A stretch of 64,000 bases of DNA from the NCBI GenBank assembly GCA_963513935.1, contig OY740777.1, positions 13,317,092-13,381,091 of the forward strand, written 5' to 3'. The position numbers and the translations under genes were made by a program. Shown piece after piece: positions 17,002-54,959 of this stretch. The notes under the pieces were generated by a model. It was not told where the DNA came from. It did no database searches and worked only from the letters and a program-made list of their open reading frames with translations. Numbering within the stretch: the first letter of the stretch is position 1; each line of letters begins with the position of its first letter. The DNA comes from Aphrophora alni. Lineage: Eukaryota; Arthropoda; Insecta; Hemiptera; Aphrophoridae.

Positions 17002-17148
17002 AGTTCAAGTGATGATCTACAGTTCAAGTGATGATCTACAGTTCAAGTGATGATCTACAGTTCAAGTGATGATCTACAGTTCAAGTGATAATCTACAGTT
17101 CAAGTGATGATCTACAGTTCAAGTGATAATCTACAGTTCAAGTGATGC
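17002..17148 (+). repeat. 19-bp tandem repeat, about 7.7 units
   Basis: The unit AGTTCAAGTGATGATCTAC starts at 17,002, 17,021, 17,040, 17,059, 17,078, 17,097, 17,116 and 17,135 (the last is partial). Two units have GATAATC instead of GATGATC. Near-identity between units indicates a young minisatellite. Confidence 0.95.
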
Positions 17149-21507: not shown

Positions 21508-22293
21508 TTTAAATTGAAGCATAACACTACCCATGCTTAAATTGAAGCATAATACTACTTATGCTTAATTTGAATCATAACACTTATTATGCTTAAATTG
21601 AATCATAACACTATCTATGCTTAAATTGAAACATAACACTACCTATGCCTAAATTGAATAATAACACTACATATTCTTAAATTGAAGCATGACACTACCT
21701 ATGCTTAAATTGAATCATAACACTACTTATGCTTAAATTGAATCATAACACTACTATGCTTAAATTGAATCATAACATTACCTATGCTGAAATTGAAGCA
21801 TAATATTACCTAGCTTAAATTGAATCATAACACTACGTATGCTTAAATTGAATCATAACACTACCTATGCTTAAATTGAAGCATAACACTACATATGCTT
21901 AAATTGAAGCATAACACTACACATGCTTAAATTGAAACATAACACTAGCCATGCTTAAATTGAAGCACGTCACTACCTATGCTTAAATTGAAGCACAACA
22001 CTACATATGCTTAAATTGAAACATAACACTAGCCATGCTTGAATTGAACCACGACACTACATATGCTTAATTTGAAACATAACACTACCTATGCTTAGAT
22101 TGAAGCATAACATTATATATGCTTAAATTGAAGCATAACACTACCCATGCTTAAATTGAAGCACGTCACTACCTATGCTTAAATTGAATCACAACACTAC
22201 ATATGCTTAAATTGAAACATAACACTAGCCATGCTTAAATTGAAGCACGACAATACCTTAGCTTAAATTAAATCATAACACTACTCATGCTTA
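21508..22293 (+). repeat. 28-bp minisatellite, about 28 units, each able to form a hairpin
   Basis: The unit is ATGCTTAAATTGAAGCATAA followed by CACTACCT (28 bp). Units vary at GAAGCAT / GAATCAT / GAAACAT and at CACGACAC / ATAACAC. The consensus contains ATGCTT-AAATTG-AAGCAT, a perfect 6-bp inverted repeat with a 6-base loop. Spacing of AAATTGAA is 28 bp throughout, with one or two units shortened by 1-2 bp. No coding potential. Confidence 0.95.
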
Positions 22294-25600: not shown

Positions 25601-27507
25601 TTGTATTGTAACACATAAGAAGATATCCATTTTGCATTAAAATTTTCGATGATCATCGTGCAAAATGTCAAAAAGCAATGAAAGAATGTTTCTCAAAATA
25701 GATATTGTAAGTTTTAAGAACCTCCCAACGTCGTATCCCGCCAGAAGTAGATGCGGGGGTGGAAAAAAAGGGAGCAGACGAACTTCTTCATTGACAACTA
25801 AATTTTTGGTGACTAATAGTTTTGGTTAGTTTAAGGATAGGCGAGTGTGAAATTTTATGCATTGTTTTAGCAAAGTTTATTTTATCATAGGATTACTTTC
25901 GTAGACTTTTAATATCCTTAACACAACCCTGATGATGATGCTCAGCACATGAAACCACGGAATTAAGACTGGAGAATATAATTGAAAAAAAAAAAACAAT
26001 ATTTTGTTAGAGTTTATTTGATTGAAATCCTTGACATTTGCGATAAAAAGAAATATAATTATTTCAAATTTTTTAATTTTTATTTTAGAAACAAAATAAA
26101 TATTTCTAAAATAAGATGCAAATTGTCGCTAAACAAAACAACATAATTTCTACCTCGTACGTACTATGAATAAAAGATTTCAATTTGAAAACCTCGTCAC
26201 ATCTTCATCCCTCCAACTTCACACCCTTTCAATGTTTCAACCCTTAGAAAAACGTGATAAAAACGAATCTCCAGAAAAATGAAAAAGCTTTTTCATGTAC
26301 AAGATATATTGCGTCTCAAATCTCAATTGTAGCCTACACTGCAGTAAACATCGCAGTCTTTTGAAATTGGGTTTCCTTTTGCGGAAATGTATTTTAGTAG
26401 AATATGATTTTACTTTTATGTTTTGAAATGTGATTACGATATATGGCAGACTGTTATTGGGTTAGAAACATAAAATTGTATAAAATATGTTTGTTTTGAA
26501 GTTATTCAAGTTGACATTTTATTGCATGGTAATATAGTTCACGGTTTTTTAGTTTTTGCTGCGCTTTTGGTTTGAATTTATAAAACAGTATTTTCGATGT
26601 AATCTTTATTGTTTATTTAGTTTCGTAGTTAATTCTTGTTGTAATCACCAACTATAAAGTTTTTCTTTTTTTATCTATGTTCACCCTATATTCACTTTGT
26701 CTTTTAATATATTTTGAAACATTTTACTACCACAAAACAAAACCCTTTTCTTTCTGGACTTCCACAAGGTCTAGTTTCATTACCGACTATACATTTTCAA
26801 ACTTTACCAAAGTTATTCCCAGTTCCATCTAACAAGTACAGATGTGTGTGTATATCTTGTAAGTGTTAAACGTCAGTTGGCAAGACTGGTAACAGACGTG
26901 TTCGTTGCCAGTTGGCAATGAATTAACAGCCAATGCAGTAAACTGAGTCGAAATATTGCTATCAACGTCCGACGGTTAAGCAAATCAAAAGGTGTTTTAA
27001 TTTCGGAACAACAAATCAGAAACGTCGCTTGAGGTAGTGGAATAATTGGGCATGGTCTAGTTTTGGATTGTTGTAAATAAACAAGCAGGAGGTTTTAGTC
27101 GAAGAGAGATTTGATGCTTAGAACACAGGTTGAAGTTTTGGAGAAATATTTAGAAGAAAGAGATGCTTGATTATGAGATTTAAAAAAATTACTGGTGGAA
27201 AAAACGCCACACGAAAGTATAAAACATGAATTACTGATGACACTATATTTGACGATGTTTCACCCACGAATTTAAGACTACACTGAATGTTTCGTCACTA
27301 AATCTCAATCTATTGGAGAAATCATCTTAGAATTACAGATAATTTCATAATTCGATTTTGACAAGGGTATCAGGTTTTTATTCATTTTTGTTTTAAAAAG
27401 CCTGGAGGAAATATCCAAACATCTCTAGATTATTAACATATTACACGGTTAAAAACTATTGCACAATTTTTATCACTCATACCAGAAGACAAATAAAAAC
27501 TAACTAA
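25601..27507. other. Non-genic DNA
   Basis: No gene recognised. CCCTGATGATGATGCTCAGC then ACATGAAACC at 25,928-25,957 has a CTGATGA box followed by GAAAC. The intervening bases do not form a convincing stem, so I do not call a ribozyme. TTGCCAGTTGGCAA at about 26,906 is a short perfect inverted repeat. Confidence 0.5.
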
Positions 27508-27606
27508 CTTAACCTTCCCTAACCTAACCTAACCTTACCTTAACCTAACCTAACCTAACTTAACCTTACCTAACCTAACCTTACCTTAACCTAACCTAAC
27601 CTAACT
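27508..27606 (-). repeat. Interstitial CCTAA/CCTTA telomere-type array
   Basis: Mixed CCTAA and CCTTA pentamers, i.e. TTAGG-type on the minus strand. The pattern starting CCTTACCTTAACC repeats at 27,533 and 27,579, so there is a 46-bp higher-order period over the pentamers. CCTAA is the insect telomere repeat. The variants and internal position show that this is interstitial, not a chromosome end. Confidence 0.9.
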
Positions 27607-28464
27607 TAATATGTCACAAATCCTATCGTTACCAAACAATGTCAGTACAATAAATTTTAGTTAAAATTAAAATTGAACCATGGACCTGTCTTTTAAAGAA
27701 ATATTAAATATTTATTATAGGTTCTAAGCTTGCTTTGCTTGGTCCTAAAACTCGGGGTTTTAATGACATCGTGTAAGATTCACTTTCTTTACCAATTATT
27801 CACAAAACATAATGTTGATTTACTATCGATTTTTCATGTTGATTTACTATCGATTATTCACGTGCAATTTGGCTAATTAATCTTCAAATTTAATCATAAT
27901 GTCTATTATAGTCTATATTACAGCTTTTCACAACAACTACCGATTTTTAAAAAATTTATTTATTTATTATCGTTATTTTTTTTATTTTTTAATTTTTTTA
28001 ATTTTTTTAACGATTCGCCTTTTGGAGAGAACACAACCAATAACGTTTTATTTAGGTCCTCAGAGACTACACTTGAAAAAACATTTATCAAAATCGCTAA
28101 TGACAATATTAATAAAATTGTAATTATTTTTTCTAACCTTCAAATTTAGGGTTACGGAAAAATGAAAAAAAAAAATCCGAGGTACCCGGTATTACTAAAA
28201 TATGACCAGATACTAAATTTAAATAAAATCGGCCCACCCGTTTGGGTTGTAAAGCACTGCACAAACAACAGACGATAGATAAACAATATTTCAAAACCTG
28301 CTTGGGGGGTGAGCCTCAATGGATTTTAAAACGGATTTATTCGCAAAATAAAAAATCATTACTAAATCATTTAAACCTTTCGAGGACTATATTAATGTTG
28401 AGCTTGACTTATGAGAAAAATTATACAGGACAACAAACAAACAGAACACAATTCTCATAAAAAA

Positions 28465-29489: not shown

Positions 29490-30298
29490 GATATTGTCAT
29501 AATCGGTCCAATAGTTTTTAAGATAGACAGTTTGTTACATTTCTATTTCAACTCGCTGCAAACAAACCCCGGTCTATTAATAAATATGATACAATATAAA
29601 AAGTAAGATCCTAATGAAAAATTGTATCAAAATAGGTCGAATAGTTTTTAACATACACAGTTTGTTACATTTCGATGTCAACTCTCTGCAAAGAAACCCC
29701 ACTCCACTAATCCAGATTATACAATAGAAAAAGTAAAATCTAAATGAAAAATTGAATCAAAATCGGTCGAAGAGTTTTTAAGATACACGATTTGTTACAT
29801 TTCGATTCCAACTCTCTGCAAAGAAACCCCACTCCACTAATCCAGATTATACAATAGAAAAAATAAAATCTAAATGAAAAATTTAATCAAAATCGGTCGA
29901 AGAGTTTTTAAGATACACAGTTTGTTACATTTCGATTTCAACTCTCTGCAGAAAAACTTCACTTCAGTAATCCAGATTATACAATATAAAAAGTAAAATA
30001 TAAATGAAAAATTGTATCAAAATCGGTCCAATAGTTTTTAAGATACACAGTTTGTTACATTTCTATTTCAACTCGCTGCAAACAAACCCCGGTCTATTAA
30101 TAAAGACTATACAATATAAAAAGTAAAATATAAATGAAAAATTGAATCAAAATCTGTCCAATAGTTTTTAAGATACACAGTTTGTTACATTTCTATTTCA
30201 ACTCGCTGCAAACAAACCCCGGTCTATTAATAAAGATTATACAATATAAAAAGTAAAATCTAAATGAAAATTTGAATCAAGATCGGTCCAATAGTTTT
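29490..30298 (+). repeat. 130-bp tandem repeat, about 6.2 units
   Basis: TTTGTTACAT occurs at 29,531, 29,661, 29,791, 29,921, 30,051 and 30,181, exactly 130 bp apart. The unit contains AATCGGTCCAATAGTTTTTA, AGATACACAGTTTGTTACAT, TCAACTCTCTGCAAAGAAAC and AATCCAGATTATACAATA. Units differ by scattered substitutions. They fall into two subtypes: CTCTCTGCAAAGAAACCCCA and CTCGCTGCAAACAAACCCCG. The text AAAATCGGTCCAATAGTTTT resembles phrases common in decayed insect transposons, so the unit may derive from one. Confidence 0.95.
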
Positions 30299-39000: not shown

Positions 39001-40100
39001 GTTTTGTAAATTTCGGTTCAATGAAAGTGTCCAAAATATTGTTAAATCTGTTTCAAAAAGAACCGATGGAAAGGATTAATGTGAACAGTTTTATTTTTTT
39101 ATTTATTATTATTTTTTTATATATATATAATTTAAATGTGTGATAAAATAGAACATAACAAACCAAATCATGTTATAAATCTATTAAATTTCATTATAGT
39201 TGAAAGTCAGTGTTAGATGGCCAAAAATTTTATATTTACTAGTAAACAGTATTTTTAAGTAAATTGTTTAAACGATTTTTGTTTAAATTTATAAAAAAAA
39301 TAGTCCATTTCACATTTTTAACATAATTTTATAAGAAACTATATATTGGATCTGTCCTTCAGGTAAGATATACTTATAAGAAAATAAAATATGCAATAAA
39401 ACTATAATTTAAAACATAATGGTATAAATTGACAAAACTGAACAATATGTATGTATGTCTTAACAATCTTTCAGGAACAATTTGTGTACAATTATGATCC
39501 CATACAGTATTCAGGTTCTTATGAAAGTACCTGGACCAAGTGTATATATAAACAAGTTCGGTCAATATGTTTTTAAAATGGCTGATATTTTAAATAGACT
39601 AGTTTTTAGTTATACGGTTTACTTTCTCAGATATATGTAGTATAATGAAATTTATGTGATGGATTAAAAAAAAACCTATGAAATGATGTTTCGAGGTCTT
39701 AGTAATAAAAAGTAGTTCTGGGAATTAAACGAATTTGGTGCGTAGATCATTTCTCGGAACATTTTTCCCTCAGTTTTTCTAAAGCTAAAAATTCAGAGAA
39801 ATACCTGCAGTAAGACAAACACTCAAAATTAAAATGATCTAAAATTGTCGATAATATTACTCAACTGTAGCATCTCCAAAAGTCTGCATCGTGAGTTATC
39901 GGTAACTGTTATTAAAAAAACGTATTTTCTAAAGATTTTATTAAAATTTTGTTAAAAAATTAAGATTATTAATAAAACCCAGTAGGCAAAAATACAAATA
40001 ATAGATACAATGTAAAGAATAATTTTGAAAATAAATCTTAACTACCATAATTTAAAATTTACTTAATTTTATAATAGTTATACTCAAGACATATTTCTAG
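33071..40100. other. Seven kilobases of very AT-rich non-genic DNA
   Basis: No gene, tandem array or mobile element recognised. One short GC-richer patch at 33,868-33,960 (CATAGCGCGCTCTGTG, GAGCGCCGCTGCAACG) stands out but has no coding frame I trust. 35,348 has ATATGGCGGCCGAT. The block 35,900-39,400 is the most AT-rich and least structured part of the window. Confidence 0.6.
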
Positions 40101-40109
40101 TTAAACAGG

Positions 40110-40214
40110 GATGTGCATCAGAGTTTGTAGGATCTGAGAATCCTTGTGTCTGGCCAAGATGACCATAAACCATGAAAAAAACCAGCAAAGATGGGGAAGC
40201 CTTAAGGTTGATTT
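40110..40214 (+). pseudogene. 5' flank of the satellite: non-LTR retrotransposon C-terminal remnant
   Basis: The frame just upstream of the satellite reads INHEKNQQRWGSLK at about 40,152-40,203. This resembles the segment between RNase H and the C-terminal zinc motif of many insect non-LTR polyproteins, where a ...H/Q-x-x-x-W... block precedes SKxxLxxPS and then GLLTGH. A stop lies about 18 codons upstream. It reads on into the first satellite monomer as LLLKNILSGRKGGRG. I infer that it is the surviving 5' flank of the coding segment that was amplified. On its own it is weak; paired with the 3' flank it is convincing. Confidence 0.5.
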
Positions 40215-42080
40215 ATTACTTAAAAACATCCTTTCAGGTAGAAAAGGAGGTAGAGGACACAAGACAAATTATAGGACTAATTACAGGACAATATGGTGTA
40301 AGAGTGCACTCTCATAGTAAATCATTACTTAAGAACATCCCTTCAGGTAGAATAGGAGGTAGAGGACAAAAGACAAATTATAGGACTAATTACAGGACAC
40401 TATGGTGTAAGAGTGCACTCCCATAGTAAATCATTACTTAAGAACATCCCTTCAGGTAGAATAGGAGGTAGAGGACACAAGACAAATTATAGGACTAATT
40501 ACAGGACAATATGGTGTAAGAGTGCACTCTCATAGTAAATCATTACTTAAGAACATCCCTTCAGGTAGAATAGGAGGTAGAGGACAAAAGACAAATTATA
40601 GGACTAATTACAGGACACTATGGTGTAAGAGTGCACTCCCATAGTAAATCATTACTTAAGAACATCCCTTCAGGTAGAATAGGAGGTAGAGGACACAAGA
40701 CAAATTATAGGACTAATTACAGGACACTATGGTGTAAGAGTGCACTCCCATAGTAAATCATTACTTAAGAACACCCCTTCAGGTAGAATAGGAGGTAGAG
40801 GACACAAGACAAATTATAGGACTAATTACAGGACAATATGGTGTAAGAGTGCACTCCCATAGTAAATCATTACTTAAGAACATCCCTTCAGGTAGAATAG
40901 GAGGTAGAGGACAAAAGACAAATTATAGAACTAATTACAGGACACTATGGTGTAAGAGTGCACTCTCATAGTAAATCATTACTTAAGAACATCCCTTCAG
41001 GTAGAATAGGAGGTAGAGGACAAAAGACAAATTATGGGACTTATTACAGGACACTATGGTGTAAGAGTGCACTCTCATAGTAAATCATTACTTAAGAACA
41101 TCCCTTCAGGTAGAATAGGAAGTAGAGGACAAAAGACAAATTATGGGACTTATTACAGGACACTATGGTGTAAGAGTGCACTCTCATAGTAAATCATTAC
41201 TTAAGAACATCCCTTCAGGTAGAATAGGAGGTAGAGGACAAAAGACAAATTATGGGACTTATTACAGGACACTATGGTGTAAGAGTGCACTCTCATAGTA
41301 AATCATTACTTAAGAACATCCCTTCAGGTAGAATAGGAGGTAGAGGACAAAAGACAAATTATGGGACTTATTACAGGACACTATGGTGTAAGAGTGCACT
41401 CTCATAGTAAATCATTACTTAAGAACATCCCTTCAGGTAGAATAGGAGGTAGAGGACAAAAGACAAATTATGGGACTTATTACAGGACACTATGGTGTAA
41501 GAGTGCACTCCCATAGTAAATCATTACTTAAGAACATCCCTTCAGGTAAAATAGGAGGTAGAGGACAAAAGACAAATTATGGGACTTATTACTTACTGGA
41601 CAGTATGGTGTAAGAGTGCACTCCCATAGTAAATCATTACTTAAGAACATCCCTTCAGGTAGAATAGGAGGTAGGGGACAAAAGACAAATTATAGGACTA
41701 ATTACAGGACAATATGGTGTAAGAGTGCACTCTCATAGTAAATCATTACTTAAGAACATCCCTTCAGGTAGAATAGGAGGTAGAGGACAAAAGACAAATT
41801 ATAGGACTTATTACAGGACACTATGGTGTAAGAGTGCACTCCCATAGTAAATCATTACTTAAGAACATCCCTTCAGGTAGAATAGGAGGTAGGGGACAAA
41901 AGACAAATTATAGGACTAATTACAGGACACTATGGTGTAAGAGTGCACTCCCATAGTAAATCATTACTTAAGAACATCCTTTCAGTAAAATAGGAGGTAG
42001 AGGACAAAAGACAAATTATGGGACTTATTACAGGACACTATGGTGTAAGATTGCACTCCCATAGTAAATCATTACTTAAG

Positions 42081-45000
42081 AACAACCCTTCAGGTAGAAT
42101 AGGAGGTAGAGGACAAAAGACAAATTATAGGACTAATTACAGGACACTATGGTGTAAGAGTGCACTCCCATAGTAAATCATTACTTAAGAACATCCCTTC
42201 AGGTAGAATAGGAGGTAGAGGACACAAGACAAATTATAGGACTAATTACAGGACAATATGGTGTAAGAGTGCACTCTCATAGTAAATCATTACTTAAGAA
42301 CACCCCTTCAGGTAGAATAGGAGGTAGAGGACAAAAGACAAATTATAGGACTAATTACAGGACAATATGGTGTAAGAGTGCACTCTCATAGTAAATCATT
42401 ACTTAAGAACATCCCTTCAGGTAGAATAGGAGGTAGAGGACAAAAGACAAATTATAGGACTAATTACAGGACAATATGGTGTAAGAGTGCACTCTCATAG
42501 TAAATCATTACTTAAGAACATCCCTTCAGGTAGAATAGGAGGTAGAGGACAAAAGACAAATTATAGGACTAATTACAGGACACTATGGTGTAAGAGTGCA
42601 CTCCCATAGTAAATCATTACTTAAGAACATCCCTTCAGGTAGAATAGGAGGTAGAGGACACAAGACAAATTATAGGACTAATTACAGGACACTATGGTGT
42701 AAGAGTGCACTCCCATAGTAAATCATTACTTAAGAACACCCCTTCAGGTAGAATAGGAGGTAGAGGACAAAAGACAAATTATGGGACTTATTACAGGACA
42801 CTATGGTGTAAGAGTGCACTCCCATAGTAAATCATTACTTAAGAACATCCCTTCAGGTAGAATAGGAGGTAGAGGACAAAAGACAAATTATGGGACTTAT
42901 TACAGGACACTATGGTGTAAGAGTGCACTCTCATAGTAAATCATTACTTAAGAACACCCCTTCAGGTAGAATAGGAGGTAGAGGACAAAAGACAAATTAT
43001 GGGACTTATTACAGGACACTATGGTGTAAGAGTGCACTCCCATAGTAAATCATTACTTAAGAACATCCCTTCAGGTAGAATAGGAGGTAGAGGACAAAAG
43101 ACAAATTATGGGACTTATTACAGGACACTATGGTGTAAGAGTGCACTCTCATAGTAAATCATTACTTAAGAACACCCCTTCAGGTAGAATAGGAGGTAGA
43201 GGACAAAAACAAATTATGGGACTTATTACAGGACACTATGGTGTAAGAGTGCACTCCCATAGTAAATCATTACTTAAGAACACCCCTTCAGGTAGAATAG
43301 GAGGTAGAGGACAAAAGACAAATTATGGGACTTATTACAGGACACTATGGTGTAAGAGTGCACTCCCATAGTAAATCATTACTTAAGAACATCCCTTCAG
43401 GTAGAATAGGAGGTAGAGGACACAAGACAAATTATAGGACTTATTACAGGACACTATGGTGTAAGAGTGCACTCTCATAGTAAATCATTACTTAAGAACA
43501 TCCCTTCAGGTAGAATAGGAGGTAGAGGACAAAAGACAAATTATGGGACTTATTACAGGACACTATGGTGTAAGAGTGCACTCTCATAGTAAATCATTAC
43601 TTAAGAACATCCCTTCAGGTAGAATAGGAGGTAGAGGACAAAAGACAAATTATGGGACTTATTACAGGACACTATGGTGTAAGAGTGCACTCTCATAGTA
43701 AATCATTACTTAAGAACATCCCTTCAGGTAGAATAGGAGGTAGGGGACAAAAGACAAATTATGGGACTTATTACAGGACACTATGGTGTAAGAGTGCACT
43801 CTCATAGTAAATCATTACTTAAGAACATCCCTTCAGGTAGAATAGGAGGTAGAGGACAAAAGACAAATTATGGGACTTATTACAGGACACTATGGTGTAA
43901 GAGTGCACTCTCATAGTAAATCATTACTTAAGAACATCCCTTCAGGTAGAATAGGAGGTAGAGGACAAAAGACAAATTATGGGACTTATTACAGGACACT
44001 ATGGTATAACAGTGCACTCCCATAGTAAATCATTACTTAAGAACACCCCTTCAGGTAGAATAGGAGGTAGAGGACAAAAGACAAATTATAGGACTTATTA
44101 CAGGACAATATGGTGTAAGAGTGCACTCTCATAGTAAATCATTACTTAAGAACATCCCTTCAGGTAGAATAGGAGGTAGAGGACAAAAGACAAATTATGG
44201 GACTTATTACAGGACACTATGGTGTAAGAGTGCACTCCCATAGTAAATCATTACTTAAGAACATCCCTTCAGGTAAAATAGGAGGTAGAGGACAAAAGAC
44301 AAATTATGGGACTTATTACTTACTGGACAGTATGGTGTAAGAGTGCACTCCCATAGTAAATCATTACTTAAGAACATCCCTTCAGGTAGAATAGGAGGTA
44401 GAGGACAAAAGACAAATTATAGGACTTATTACAGGACACTATGGTGTAAGAGTGCACTCCCATAGTAAATCATTACTTAAGAACATCCCTTCAGGTAGAA
44501 TAGGAGGTAGGGGACAAAAGACAAATTATAGGACTAATTACAGGACACTATGGTGTAAGAGTGCACTCCCATAGTAAATCATTACTTAAGAACATCCCTT
44601 CAGTAAAATAGGAGGTAGAGGACAAAAGACAAATTATGGGACTTATTACAGGACACTATGGTGTAAGAGTGCACTCCCATAGTAAATCATTACTTAAGAA
44701 CATCCCTTCAGGTAGAATAGGAGGTAGGGGACAAAAGACAAATTATAGGACTAATTACAGGACACTATGGTGTAAGAGTGCACTCCCATAGTAAATCATT
44801 ACTTAAGAACATCCCTTCAGGTAGAATAGGAGGTAGAGGACAAAAGACAAATTATGGGACTTATTACAGGACACTATGGTGTAAGAGTGCACTCCCATAG
44901 TAAATCATTACTTAAGAACATCCCTTCAGGTAGAATAGGAGGTAGGGGACAAAAGACAAATTATGGGACTTATTACAGGACACTATGGTGTAAGAGTGCA

Positions 45001-45243
45001 CTCCCATAGTAAATCATTACTTAAGAACATCCCTTCAGGTGGAATAGGAGGTAGAGGACAAAAGACAAATTATAGGACTTATTACAGGACACTATGGTGT
45101 AAGAGTGCACTCCCATAGTAAATCATTACTTAAGAACATCCCTTCAGGGTGAATAGGAGGTAGGGGACACAAGACAAATTATAGGACTTATTACAGGACA
45201 CTATGGTGTAAGAGTGCACTCCCATAGTAAATCATTACTTAAG
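42081..45243 (+). repeat. Higher-order satellite block A (29 monomers, 3,163 bp)
   Basis: Every private variant in this block recurs exactly 3,163 bp later: AACAACCCTT (42,081/45,244), ACAAAAACAAATT (near 43,205/46,368), GTATAACAGTGCAC (near 44,005/47,168), ACTTACTGGACAG (44,318/47,481), GGTGGAATAGG (near 45,039/48,202) and GGGTGAATAGG (near 45,148/48,311). 29 x 109 = 3,161, with +4, -1 and -1 giving 3,163. Identity is near complete. Confidence 0.93.
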
Positions 45244-48200
45244 AACAACCCTTCAGGTAGAATAGGAGGTAGAGGACAAAAGACAAATTATAGGACTAAT
45301 TACAGGACACTATGGTGTAAGAGTGCACTCCCATAGTAAATCATTACTTAAGAACATCCCTTCAGGTAGAATAGGAGGTAGAGGACACAAGACAAATTAT
45401 AGGACTAATTACAGGACAATATGGTGTAAGAGTGCACTCTCATAGTAAATCATTACTTAAGAACACCCCTTCAGGTAGAATAGGAGGTAGAGGACAAAAG
45501 ACAAATTATAGGACTAATTACAGGACAATATGGTGTAAGAGTGCACTCTCATAGTAAATCATTACTTAAGAACATCCCTTCAGGTAGAATAGGAGGTAGA
45601 GGACAAAAGACAAATTATAGGACTAATTACAGGACAATATGGTGTAAGAGTGCACTCTCATAGTAAATCATTACTTAAGAACATCCCTTCAGGTAGAATA
45701 GGAGGTAGAGGACAAAAGACAAATTATAGGACTAATTACAGGACACTATGGTGTAAGAGTGCACTCCCATAGTAAATCATTACTTAAGAACATCCCTTCA
45801 GGTAGAATAGGAGGTAGAGGACACAAGACAAATTATAGGACTAATTACAGGACACTATGGTGTAAGAGTGCACTCCCATAGTAAATCATTACTTAAGAAC
45901 ACCCCTTCAGGTAGAATAGGAGGTAGAGGACAAAAGACAAATTATGGGACTTATTACAGGACACTATGGTGTAAGAGTGCACTCCCATAGTAAATCATTA
46001 CTTAAGAACATCCCTTCAGGTAGAATAGGAGGTAGAGGACAAAAGACAAATTATGGGACTTATTACAGGACACTATGGTGTAAGAGTGCACTCTCATAGT
46101 AAATCATTACTTAAGAACACCCCTTCAGGTAGAATAGGAGGTAGAGGACAAAAGACAAATTATGGGACTTATTACAGGACACTATGGTGTAAGAGTGCAC
46201 TCCCATAGTAAATCATTACTTAAGAACATCCCTTCAGGTAGAATAGGAGGTAGAGGACAAAAGACAAATTATGGGACTTATTACAGGACACTATGGTGTA
46301 AGAGTGCACTCTCATAGTAAATCATTACTTAAGAACACCCCTTCAGGTAGAATAGGAGGTAGAGGACAAAAACAAATTATGGGACTTATTACAGGACACT
46401 ATGGTGTAAGAGTGCACTCCCATAGTAAATCATTACTTAAGAACACCCCTTCAGGTAGAATAGGAGGTAGAGGACAAAAGACAAATTATGGGACTTATTA
46501 CAGGACACTATGGTGTAAGAGTGCACTCCCATAGTAAATCATTACTTAAGAACATCCCTTCAGGTAGAATAGGAGGTAGAGGACACAAGACAAATTATAG
46601 GACTTATTACAGGACACTATGGTGTAAGAGTGCACTCTCATAGTAAATCATTACTTAAGAACATCCCTTCAGGTAGAATAGGAGGTAGAGGACAAAAGAC
46701 AAATTATGGGACTTATTACAGGACACTATGGTGTAAGAGTGCACTCTCATAGTAAATCATTACTTAAGAACATCCCTTCAGGTAGAATAGGAGGTAGAGG
46801 ACAAAAGACAAATTATGGGACTTATTACAGGACACTATGGTGTAAGAGTGCACTCTCATAGTAAATCATTACTTAAGAACATCCCTTCAGGTAGAATAGG
46901 AGGTAGGGGACAAAAGACAAATTATGGGACTTATTACAGGACACTATGGTGTAAGAGTGCACTCTCATAGTAAATCATTACTTAAGAACATCCCTTCAGG
47001 TAGAATAGGAGGTAGAGGACAAAAGACAAATTATGGGACTTATTACAGGACACTATGGTGTAAGAGTGCACTCTCATAGTAAATCATTACTTAAGAACAT
47101 CCCTTCAGGTAGAATAGGAGGTAGAGGACAAAAGACAAATTATAGGACTTATTACAGGACACTATGGTATAACAGTGCACTCCCATAGTAAATCATTACT
47201 TAAGAACACCCCTTCAGGTAGAATAGGAGGTAGAGGACAAAAGACAAATTATAGGACTTATTACAGGACAATATGGTGTAAGAGTGCACTCTCATAGTAA
47301 ATCATTACTTAAGAACATCCCTTCAGGTAGAATAGGAGGTAGAGGACAAAAGACAAATTATGGGACTTATTACAGGACACTATGGTGTAAGAGTGCACTC
47401 CCATAGTAAATCATTACTTAAGAACATCCCTTCAGGTAAAATAGGAGGTAGAGGACAAAAGACAAATTATGGGACTTATTACTTACTGGACAGTATGGTG
47501 TAAGAGTGCACTCCCATAGTAAATCATTACTTAAGAACATCCCTTCAGGTAGAATAGGAGGTAGAGGACAAAAGACAAATTATAGGACTTATTACAGGAC
47601 ACTATGGTGTAAGAGTGCACTCCCATAGTAAATCATTACTTAAGAACATCCCTTCAGGTAGAATAGGAGGTATGGGACAAAAGACAAATTATAGGACTAA
47701 TTACAGGACACTATGGTGTAAGAGTGCACTCCCATAGTAAATCATTACTTAAGAACATCCCTTCAGTAAAATAGGAGGTAGAGGACAAAAGACAAATTAT
47801 GGGACTTATTACAGGACACTATGGTGTAAGAGTGCACTCCCATAGTAAATCATTACTTAAGAACATCCCTTCAGGTAGAATAGGAGGTAGGGGACAAAAG
47901 ACAAATTATAGGACTAATTACAGGACACTATGGTGTAAGAGTGCACTCCCATAGTAAATCATTACTTAAGAACATCCCTTCAGGTAGAATAGGAGGTAGA
48001 GGACAAAAGACAAATTATGGGACTTATTACAGGACACTATGGTGTAAGAGTGCACTCCCATAGTAAATCATTACTTAAGAACATCCCTTCAGGTAGAATA
48101 GGAGGTAGGGGACAAAAGACAAATTATGGGACTTATTACAGGACACTATGGTGTAAGAGTGCACTCCCATAGTAAATCATTACTTAAGAACATCCCTTCA

Positions 48201-48406
48201 GGTGGAATAGGAGGTAGAGGACAAAAGACAAATTATAGGACTTATTACAGGACACTATGGTGTAAGAGTGCACTCCCATAGTAAATCATTACTTAAGAAC
48301 ATCCCTTCAGGGTGAATAGGAGGTAGGGGACACAAGACAAATTATAGGACTTATTACAGGACACTATGGTGTAAGAGTGCACTCCCATAGTAAATCATTA
48401 CTTAAG
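45244..48406 (+). repeat. Higher-order satellite block B, tandem copy of block A
   Basis: It starts exactly where block A ends and carries the same ordered variants. I noticed only isolated differences, for example GGTATGGGA near 47,672 where block A has GGTAGGGGA, and TATAGGACTT at about 47,141 where block A has TATGGGACTT. The copy is very recent, or an assembly duplication. Confidence 0.9.
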
Positions 48407-49165
48407 AACATCCCTTCAGGTAGAATAGGAGGTAGAGGACACAAGACAAATTATGGGACTTATTACAGGACACTATGGTGTAAGAGTGGACTCCCATAGT
48501 AAATCATTACTTAAGAACATCCCTTCAGGTAGAATAGGAGGTAGAGGACACAATACAAATTATAGGACTTATTACAGGACACTATGGTGTAAGAGTGCAC
48601 TCCCATAGTAAATCATTACTTAAGAACATCCCTTCAGGTAGAATAGGAGGTAGGGGACACAAGACAAATTATGGGACTTATTACAGGATACTATGGTGTA
48701 AGAGTGCACTCCCATAGTAAATCATTACTTAAGAACATCCCTTCAGGTAGAATAGGAGGTAGAGGACAAAAGACAAATTATGGGACTTATTACAGGACAC
48801 TATGGTGTAAGAGTGCACTCCCATAGTAAATTATTACTTAAGAACATCCCTTCAGGTAGAATAGGAGGTAGGGGACACAAGACAAATTATGGGACTTATT
48901 ACAGGACACTATGGTGTAAGAGTGCACTCCCATAGTAAATCATTACTTAAGAACATCCCTTCAGGTAGAATAGGAGGTAGACGACACAAGACAAATTATA
49001 GGACTAATTACAGGACACTATGGTGTAAGAGTGCACTCCCATAGTAAATCATTACTTAAGAACATCCCTTCAGTAAAATAGGAGGTAGAGGACAAAAGAC
49101 AAATTATGGGACTTATTACAGGACACTATGGTGTAAGAGTGCACTCCCATAGTAAATCATTACTA

Positions 49166-49246
49166 TGGGGCGGGAAGAGTGAAGTGACAACAGACCACAT
49201 AATTTTCAATTGTGAGGTCCTGACAAATAGAAGGTCCCAGGTGTGA
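49166..49246 (+). pseudogene. 3' flank of the satellite: C-terminus of a non-LTR retrotransposon polyprotein
   Basis: The last monomer reads VHSHSKSLL and continues in the same frame, with no break, into WGGKSEVTTDHIIFNCEVLT and then NRRSQV and TGA. This is the classic extreme C-terminal block of RNase-H-bearing insect non-LTR elements: ETxxHIIxxC with CEVL and Arg downstream, which follows GLLTGHxxLxxHLH at the right distance. The first Cys pair of the zinc motif (CxxC before the acidic stretch) seems lost at the junction, where WGG stands for the usual C-x-W/L-C-G. The frame continuity is the main evidence that the satellite monomer is retrotransposon coding sequence. After the stop I see no intact 3' UTR; a (TA)n tract follows at 49,391. 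Confidence 0.75.
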
Positions 49247-49384
49247 GTTAGTTAGTAGATTACTTAAACTCATAAGGGGAACAAATCTTCAGAACTAGAA
49301 TGTTAGTTGACAGTGATGGTTTAAAAGGCCCTTTAAATTCCAAATCAAATCAAGACATATTTATTAAACAAGTTGAATAAGTTT

Positions 49385-49599: not shown

Positions 49600-50140
49600 G
49601 GGTTGTACAGACTGGTAGTTTCAATTGACATGTAAGTGTTCCATAATTATTTATTTTTTGTAGTGTTTAATTTACAAATTCAAACCAATTACGATTAAAT
49701 GATATCAATATATGAATATGAGTAGGCTATTATTAGCAATTTAATCGTACAAATTTTAACCCTCAACAAGACAAAGGTAAGAAATTCATATTCCAAACAG
49801 TAATTTAGATTTTGATGTCCAATATTTTAATATTTTACATAAGGAGCACAGACTGTACATGATAATAAAAGTTAGTTTCAATTGACATATTGATGTTCCA
49901 TAATTATTTCTTTTTTGTACAGTGTTTTATTTGTTATTTAAAATAATTATCAATAAAATGATAAGAATATATGTACATCAGTATTATTCCCCATTTAATC
50001 GTACTAACTACAACTCTCTACAAGACAAAGTGGCAAATTCATATTCAAAACTGTAATTTAGATTTAGATGTCAAATAATTTAAAATTTTACATAAGGAGT
50101 ACAGACTGTACATGATAATAAAAATATTGAATTGTTATTT
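49600..50140 (+). repeat. Diverged tandem duplication, period about 255 bp
   Basis: GTTTCAATTGACAT occurs at about 49,618 and 49,875. TTTTACATAAGGAG followed by ACAGACTGTACATGATAATA occurs at 49,833 and 50,086. Between them, GTTCCATAATTATTT, TTTAATCGTAC and CAAGACAAAG recur in order. Spacing of 253-257 bp indicates a two-copy, indel-bearing old duplication. Non-coding. Confidence 0.85.
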
Positions 50141-53590: not shown

Positions 53591-54830
53591 TTTTTTTCTT
53601 TTTTTTTCAATTTGTTTTTCTCCCTAAAAGTTATTTTTGAAGTCATCTGTGGAGTTTCTTTTATTGTATTATATTTTATTACATTTATTTAAAAACTAGG
53701 CATGAGAGCCTATCTAGCAATGTACATTTCATATTAAATGTCACTATTGGCCGGAATATCACCCACTGATGCACTCCTCATAACTATACACATAATTTCA
53801 TGTGTAAATAATTACTTGCACTTATCAAAGTTCAAAAGGCTACGTTCTCTTCAGCCGGCGTATCTCCCCAGAGCAGTTGTGTAAACAATTCATTTCAGAA
53901 CTTTCATGTTGAAGTCTTTGTTTTTGCTTCTCTGCAAACCTTTTTATTTCTTCCGCGACGGTGTTCATCTTGAGATCACGATGAACCAGGGTGCATTAAC
54001 AATGCTCCGCAGAACCTTATTCTGAAAAGTTTGTATAATATTTACATTTGTCTTCTTCGTACAACCCCACAACTGTATTCCATAGGTCCACATTGGTTTC
54101 AACATTCACCCATAGAGAAGGAGTTTATTGTGTAGGTCCCAAGTAACCAGTACATCTTCCTGCATTGCATATTTAATTCTACCTTATTCTTTGTAACATG
54201 CTCCTTCCAGTGTAGCTTTGCATCAAGTGTCACACCCAAGTATGTAGCAGTATTAGCTGGAATTACTAAGTAGGAATTTATTTTAATAAGAATTGGATTT
54301 ATTTTTCTGGTTTTAAAATTAACATAGTTTGACTTATATTCGTTTAATTTTATTCTCCACTACTTTATCCAGACGCTAACTCTATCAATCGATCTTCGTA
54401 ATTAGTGTGTTGTCTCCTCCACATTGTTACCGTTCGCGAAGATTGCTGTGTCATCAGCAAAAGACGCAATAATTGTCTCATTTTCTTGAGGAATGTTGCT
54501 GGTGTATAAGAGATAGATCAAGGGTCTATGGACACTTTCTTGTGGTATCCCCGCTGAAATACTCTTCAATTCAGAATACCCTCCTTTGTGCTTAACTGTG
54601 AAACATCTTTCTGACAGATAAAATTCCAGAATCCGACAAATCAGCTCTGGAAGATCACGTTGCAGTTTAAAGATTAATCCCTTGTGCCAGACCTTGTCGA
54701 ATACTTTAGCAACATCTAAAAAACACCGGGAACATATTTTGCGTTACTCCAAAGCTTTTTTATTACATGTGTGATTCTGTGTACTTGTTCTGTAGTTGAG
54801 TGTTTATCTCTAAAGCCAAACTGGTGATAA

Positions 54831-54959
54831 GGTTAGGTTAGGTTAGGTTATGTTAGGTTAGGTTAGGTTAGGTTAGGTTAGGTTAGGTTAGGTTAGTTTA
54901 GGTTAGGATATGTTAGGTTAGGTTAGGTTAGGTTAGGTTAGGTTAGGTTAGGTTAGGTT
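54831..54959 (+). repeat. TTAGG telomere-type array inside the Jockey RT coding region
   Basis: About 26 GGTTA pentamers with three variants (TTATG, TAGTTTA, AGGATATG). On the minus strand the retroelement reads ...RIIEEKQLIS, then CCTAA repeats, then YHQFGFRDKHST. In intact Jockey proteins only one to three residues separate the equivalents of QLI and HQFGFR. The array is therefore inserted at, or expanded from, this point in the coding sequence, with essentially no retroelement sequence lost. Confidence 0.93.

Follow-up and report, generated by a model that had tools for sequence, protein, structure and literature searches.

We examined a 64,000-nucleotide stretch of the Aphrophora alni genome (hereafter the window; positions 13317092-13381091 of contig C13 in a 1.70-Gb assembly of 388 contigs) that contains a long tandem array of a 109-bp unit. 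Our analyses suggest that this array grew within one dead, 5'-truncated copy of a non-long terminal repeat (non-LTR) retrotransposon – through a local duplication between two GCACT sites after the copy had inserted, a later expansion, and a duplication of a 29-unit block. We assign this reading a probability of roughly 0.87.

An array within a truncated retrotransposon copy

Tandem Repeats Finder identifies a single array with a period of 109 bp, at positions 40215-49164 (82.1 copies, 97% matches), which bears out an earlier note on the window that had described it. Cut at an anchor, the array resolves into 82 tandem units (40214..49157; this and all other features below lie on the + strand) that occupy 8.95 kb at a single locus. 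Each spans the element from GCACTCCCATAG to GAGTGCACT but lacks 20 bp. Unit length is 109 bp in 73 of the 82 units, 108 bp in six and 113 bp in three. Mean pairwise identity is 96.4%, with 34 distinct sequences represented.

According to the earlier note, the array lies in the C-terminal coding part of a non-LTR retrotransposon and is flanked by more of the element's sequence; its proposed check was to look in the same genome for relatives that carry one unit. We searched with positions 40150-40330 (181 bp) as the query and scored 40 of 96 candidates. Besides the array itself, these included diverged matches on many contigs, with similarity far beyond chance; the best diverged match, on contig C17 (E 1.6e-16, 70% identity), spans the flank plus the unit (bases 1-160 of the 181). 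We fetched 12 loci and then 19 more, the later 19 being the places outside the array among the listed matches to a 30-bp pattern described below. Flank and unit pieces matched all 12 of the loci fetched first (blastn E down to 9e-19). Across the full set, 30 of 31 loci have the left flank, then the unit, then the right flank, on one strand and at element spacing; in the remaining one (L031) the right flank had no match. Because all loci were picked by a match to the left flank or the unit, the right flank is the independent part of this collinearity test. Relatives with one unit between two flanks thus exist in this genome, and the placement of the array within the element's C-terminal coding segment holds.

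The parent element reads as a non-LTR retrotransposon with endonuclease (EN), reverse transcriptase (RT) and RNase H domains and a C-terminus with a Cys/His pattern. These domains were read in the relatives, since the window copy is not long enough to include them. Eight open pieces of relatives were scanned against Pfam: a piece of L013 matched RNase_H above the cut-off (1.6e-7), a piece of L017 matched Exo_endo_phos_2, the EN family, just below it (5.8e-6, 26.6 bits against a cut-off of 27.4; next piece 0.012), and a piece of L015 gave a weak zf-RVT match below the cut-off (0.0047). Four further pieces yielded one RNase_H match (7.8e-7), two RVT_1 matches and one blank; a complete RT domain was not among the sequences recovered. 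In L024 and L037, tblastn places the EN piece first, then RT, then RNase H. Among six element pieces searched against NCBIfam there was one RNase HI match, far below the cut-off, and PDB matches to the RNase H piece were weak (best E 0.0005); the 60 listed of 125 are, judging by names or lengths, RNase H domains of retroviral reverse transcriptases. The copies of the relatives end in AAATCAATCAATC-like tails. The parent shares EN, RT, RNase H, a Cys/His C-terminus, a simple-repeat 3' tail and truncated copies with elements of the I/R1/Jockey/LOA groups, to which we take EN-RT-RNase H elements of this type to belong – a likeness of domain order rather than of an RT tree, and one drawn from copies that were found decayed.

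Three observations concern the copies of this family and their surroundings. The family divides at a 12-bp indel inside GLITGH: by eye, nine of the 19 copies L021-L039 have the 12 bp, eight lack it and two (L021 and L025) are ambiguous; the array has the long form. About 2 kb from one family copy, L012:3903-5001 holds a 126-bp (42-codon) tandem array of at least 8.7 units (95% matches) that runs off the stretch and has one frame open for 238 codons. Beside another copy, L018:3-2737 contains long open stretches and resembles an LTR retroelement; one stretch has integrase-like matches, to IS481 and IS3 models and below cut-off.

The window copy has the boundaries of an insertion. We aligned it to 13 and to 19 copies. 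Its left part (40097..40213; blastn E to 9e-19) is 5'-truncated: it starts at the end of the RNase H region (NLGKRG in L037) and extends through HEKNQQRWGSLK. Its 3' end (49247..49349), common to the relatives in these alignments, closes with CCAAATCAAA where they have their AAATCAATCAATC-like tails. Homology begins sharply at 40096/40097: similarity over the 30 bp downstream was exceeded in none of 2000 shuffles, and upstream sequence aligned no better than shuffles did (p = 0.97 for 30 bp and p = 0.26 for 15 bp, 2000 shuffles). Directly before this boundary lies a 13-bp sequence, TCAAGACATATTT (40084..40096), that recurs after the 3' tail (49350..49362). Random pairs of 30-bp pieces of the window shared a 12-mer in six of 20000 cases; for pairs of 85 bp, nearer the width searched, the figure was 74 of 20000. 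We considered whether the left copy of the repeat could be element sequence and rejected this, given that the upstream alignment is no better than shuffles; one copy, L010, is similar over a few bases. A crude boundary test on the relatives (25 loci, with six of 31 dropped because the anchor was absent) identified 11-bp direct repeats near the ends of two, L026 and L028. The 13-bp repeat is best read as a probable target-site duplication, its two copies being the left and right duplicates. The host copy would then be a 5'-truncated insertion of a few hundred base pairs that was probably never an open gene and was dead on arrival.

Unit structure, seams and edges

Open stretches in three relatives clarify the ancestral order of the sequence within the unit. 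L037 has one open stretch, ...VPGHKGVEGNKKADNL...HAKYQQRWESLKGHSHSKSLLK, in which HSHSKS comes after the W-SLK block. L020 reads SKSLLKDIPSGSPERTIMTGGKGQLRRFTEHCG in one open stretch and carries the same frame towards the GLITGH region, and the open stretch in L009, ...GFITGYCGLKVHVHSLGAYHGETGCRLCGKG, has the real VHLH...CRLC segment after GLITGH. By sequence, the unit is therefore a circular permutation: it begins in the upstream block at GCACTCCCATAG, passes through GLITGH and ends at GAGTGCACT, where the next unit starts. The earlier note had taken HSHSKS for the HLH block that follows GLITGH. This identification is ruled out by L009 and L037, where HSHSKS stands upstream of GLITGH, right after W-SLK; a seam between units had been misread as that block.

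Seam sequence points to the place at which the unit was first duplicated. In relatives the two ancestral sites mostly read GGGCACTCCC (first) and GTGCACTTGC (second), with GCACT common to both. The first unit-to-unit seam, GTGCACTC (40304..40311), has GTGCACT|TG and GGGCACT|CC joined at this common GCACT, and the seam sequence of the array is GTGCACTCCC. The sites are 129 bp apart in L033, the sole one of 25 loci that fits a strict pattern, and the unit lacks 20 bp of this ancestral stretch. The relatives thus carry a direct repeat of at least 5 bp at the two ends of the 129-bp stretch, of which the window copy has lost the left one. A run of at least five matched bases is expected at a random junction with a probability of ~0.011.

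Both edges of the array are damaged. At the left edge ~12 bp (GGGCACTCCCAT in relatives), including the first GCACT, have been lost. At the right edge a partial last unit, CATTACT (49158..49164), meets the C-terminal block at a common ACT in the alignment to 19 copies. By hand count ~40 bp of element sequence are missing here, among them the true VHLH...CR segment; the majority line gives LHRIGAYHGETVCR as their coding content. What is left of the C-terminal coding block, WGGKSEVTTDHIIFNCEVLTNRRSQV-stop (49165..49246), aligns with the relatives – L015 reads CRLCGKDEETADHIIFNSEALTNKRRKVFGFQIPWELS – and has lost its first Cys pair (CRLC in relatives). A further ~35 bp, relative to the relatives, are lost before the TGA at 49244-49246. 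A model of slippage between noncontiguous repeats (in PMC3389668) expects an incomplete terminal unit; the right-end unit is incomplete, but it ends at a deletion junction.

These losses change how the coding sequence around the array is to be understood. The peptides IMGLITGHYGVRVHSHSKS, HEKNQQRWGSLK and WGGKSEVTTDHIIFNCEVLT...stop are legible at the places reported in the earlier note. The last unit had appeared to continue without interruption into WGGKSEV; this is a deletion junction and not an ancestral adjacency, and the in-frame look of HSHSKSLLWGGKSEV is secondary because of the ~40-bp deletion. Nor is the stop the element's own, since the ~35-bp loss precedes its TGA. The upstream block HEKNQQRWGSLK does remain legible at the 5' edge, but beyond a ~12-bp loss and 1 nucleotide out of phase with GLITGH. 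In relatives the two share one frame, seen piecewise: L037 shows it from W-SLK to HSHSKSLLK, and L020 from SKSLLK as far as the GHCG region. The ancestral gene segment, which the earlier note expected to read with the satellite collapsed, is not restored in this way: one unit with its flanks still lacks 20 bp within the unit, ~12 bp at the left edge of the array and ~40 bp at its right edge. The host copy was 5'-truncated and dead on arrival, so that no reading frame was being kept. The array itself has no open frame, because 109 is not a multiple of 3 and stops interrupt all three forward and three reverse frames of its consensus. A protein-coding repeat array is thereby ruled out. The array encodes nothing and probably does nothing, and is read as neutral sequence on a dead insertion.

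Within the array we identified a higher-order duplication of 3163 bp. Direct comparison of a 29-unit block at 42070..45232 (units 18-46) with the block that follows it at 45233..48395 (units 47-75) found two mismatches in 3163 bp. Identity between units is correspondingly highest at a lag of 29 (98.1%); every other lag between 1 and 59 gives 95.8-97.2%. This duplication is the most recent visible growth step, provided that the assembly is correct here.

How the array may have arisen

We searched the whole assembly for the seam and for the 20-bp loss, allowing up to 3 mismatches. A 30-bp pattern, GTGCACTCCCATAGTAAATCATTACTTAAG, matched 162 times on the forward and 82 times on the reverse strand (controls, 0), and the array explains at most 82 of these 244 matches. 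The 19 places outside the array among the matches listed each have a single mismatch, at base 2 or 3 and just before CACTCCC, and 15 of the 19 read GGGCAC where the array has GTGCAC. A 29-base seam pattern that reaches further upstream matched 82 times in 1.70 Gb, and all 82 matches lie in the array on C13 (controls, 0). A pattern for the 20-bp loss matched 74 times, always inside the array. At 3 mismatches in 29 bases, an old and strongly diverged duplicate may escape the seam pattern; a second array elsewhere in the genome is ruled out within that limit. The seam thus occurs at one locus, rather than at the many loci or over the large genome share of a satellite family. Consistent with these distributions, the duplication and the loss are local to the parent copy within 3 mismatches. 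With all 82 seam matches in one array, we conclude that amplification is local and probably came after insertion.

We propose the following sequence of events. A 5'-truncated copy of an EN-RT-RNase H non-LTR element would have inserted by target-primed reverse transcription, leaving the 13-bp target-site duplication; the anatomy is visible, and the process is the part we supply. The dead copy would then have decayed, losing 20 bp in the future unit. A tandem duplication between the two GCACT sites in the C-terminal coding region, 129 bp apart before the loss, may have followed by replication slippage or microhomology-mediated repair, the sites and seam being those described above and the process and order our interpretation. 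Unequal exchange or further slippage could have carried the array to 82 units, after which the 29-unit block would have been duplicated recently, as the pattern of unit identities suggests.

The closest competitor places the first step during insertion itself. The element's reverse transcriptase could have jumped back on its RNA template at GCACT to make the first tandem dimer, which DNA-level processes only expanded. The 5-bp microhomology fits a template jump as well as it fits replication slippage, and the restriction of the seam to the array locus within 3 mismatches is equally compatible with it. Against it, the units share a 20-bp loss that is found nowhere else in the genome at this stringency. 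The simplest account is that a copy already in place lost the 20 bp before the duplication, though homogenisation could also explain the shared loss. We consider a template jump unlikely. If it did occur, the insertion itself seeded the satellite, and the array would preserve a trace of target-primed reverse transcription giving rise to tandem DNA. It is far less probable that the source element already carried the duplication and that retrotransposition brought it here. Long interspersed nuclear element (LINE) subfamilies with an internal tandem repeat do exist, L1PA being an example in the survey PMC3389668, but 82 of 82 seam matches lie in this array and 30 of 31 loci retain the single-copy order. 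The damage at the left and right array edges is what one might expect of an unrelated satellite lying beside a retrotransposon fragment, by chance or through insertion of one into the other. That explanation is refuted by the collinear relatives, in which the unit aligns with the element between both flanks, in order, at 30 of 31 loci, and left flank, unit and right flank follow one another within a single coding segment. We regard it as the least probable of all.

Several observations weigh against growth of the array by local duplication in a dead inserted copy. The left GCACT site is absent from the array's left edge, and since it is gone there, the first duplication is deduced from the seams and the relatives rather than seen in place. 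The 20-bp loss may predate the duplication or may have spread through the array by homogenisation. In the crude boundary test, which had no chance control, 23 of 25 loci gave just 4-8 bp repeats, and the left repeat of L026 lies 15 bp outside the estimated boundary. Among the eight open pieces scanned, four had no Pfam family, including a piece from the RNase H region of L010, and the RT (RVT_1) matches were weak (E 0.012 and 0.15, below cut-off). Finally, the array and its insertion site are read from a single assembly.

Known systems and other repeats in the window

The earlier note had called a satellite expanded inside a retrotransposon reading frame unusual. As a kind of event it is less so. 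The table of a review (PMC9659126) lists satellites, minisatellites and microsatellites from LINE open reading frame 2 (ORF2) or from CR1, among them PROsat in Phodopus and Pvc20 in seal (both L1 ORF2) and HinfI/SCR1 in chicken (CR1 3' untranslated region plus partial ORF2). In these three, as in the present array, the repeated sequence matches coding sequence of a non-LTR retrotransposon. As far as the review's tabulation describes them, the present array differs in being confined to one locus and in not having left its parent insertion: both flanks remain, together with a probable target-site duplication, and the seam can be located to the base.

A human survey (PMC3389668) gives a count of 7,276 tandem repeats derived from transposable elements, 601 of them L1-associated besides those of L1PA. 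Of two origin models that it sets out, one needs direct repeats of 5-10 bp around the unit, and 300 cases with flanking direct repeats of 5-20 bp are assigned to the Haber and Louis model. The GCACT pair fits this flanking-direct-repeat model as the survey presents it for human minisatellites derived from transposable elements. The array described here is long, at 82 units and 8.95 kb, and contains a higher-order duplication. LINE untranslated regions as sources of satellites, and microhomology-initiated end joining, are among the topics of a 2025 review (PMC12628747). We found no title or abstract start describing an anatomy of the present kind, in a search outside which most subscription papers fall.

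Tandem repeats from LINE coding sequence are documented already, and what is new is an unusually legible example rather than a new kind of system. How a tandem array began can usually no longer be seen, since the parent sequence has been lost. In this array the parent insertion, the probable target-site duplication, the seam microhomology, the damaged edges and the later 29-unit duplication are visible together, and many single-unit relatives in the same genome serve as outgroups. The order of events can therefore be tested at one locus.

The window contains further tandem repeats. A 253-bp tandem duplication (49616-50123, 81% matches) lies ~250 bp beyond the right end of the insertion. Other arrays occupy 21509-22293 (28 bp x 28), 29497-30298 (130 bp x 6.2) and 17002-17147 (19 bp x 7.7). 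TTAGG is the usual insect telomere motif, and two interstitial TTAGG-type stretches in opposite orientations, (CTAAC)n at 27500-27609 and (AGGTT)n at 54830-54959, lie 13 Mb inside the 51-Mb contig.

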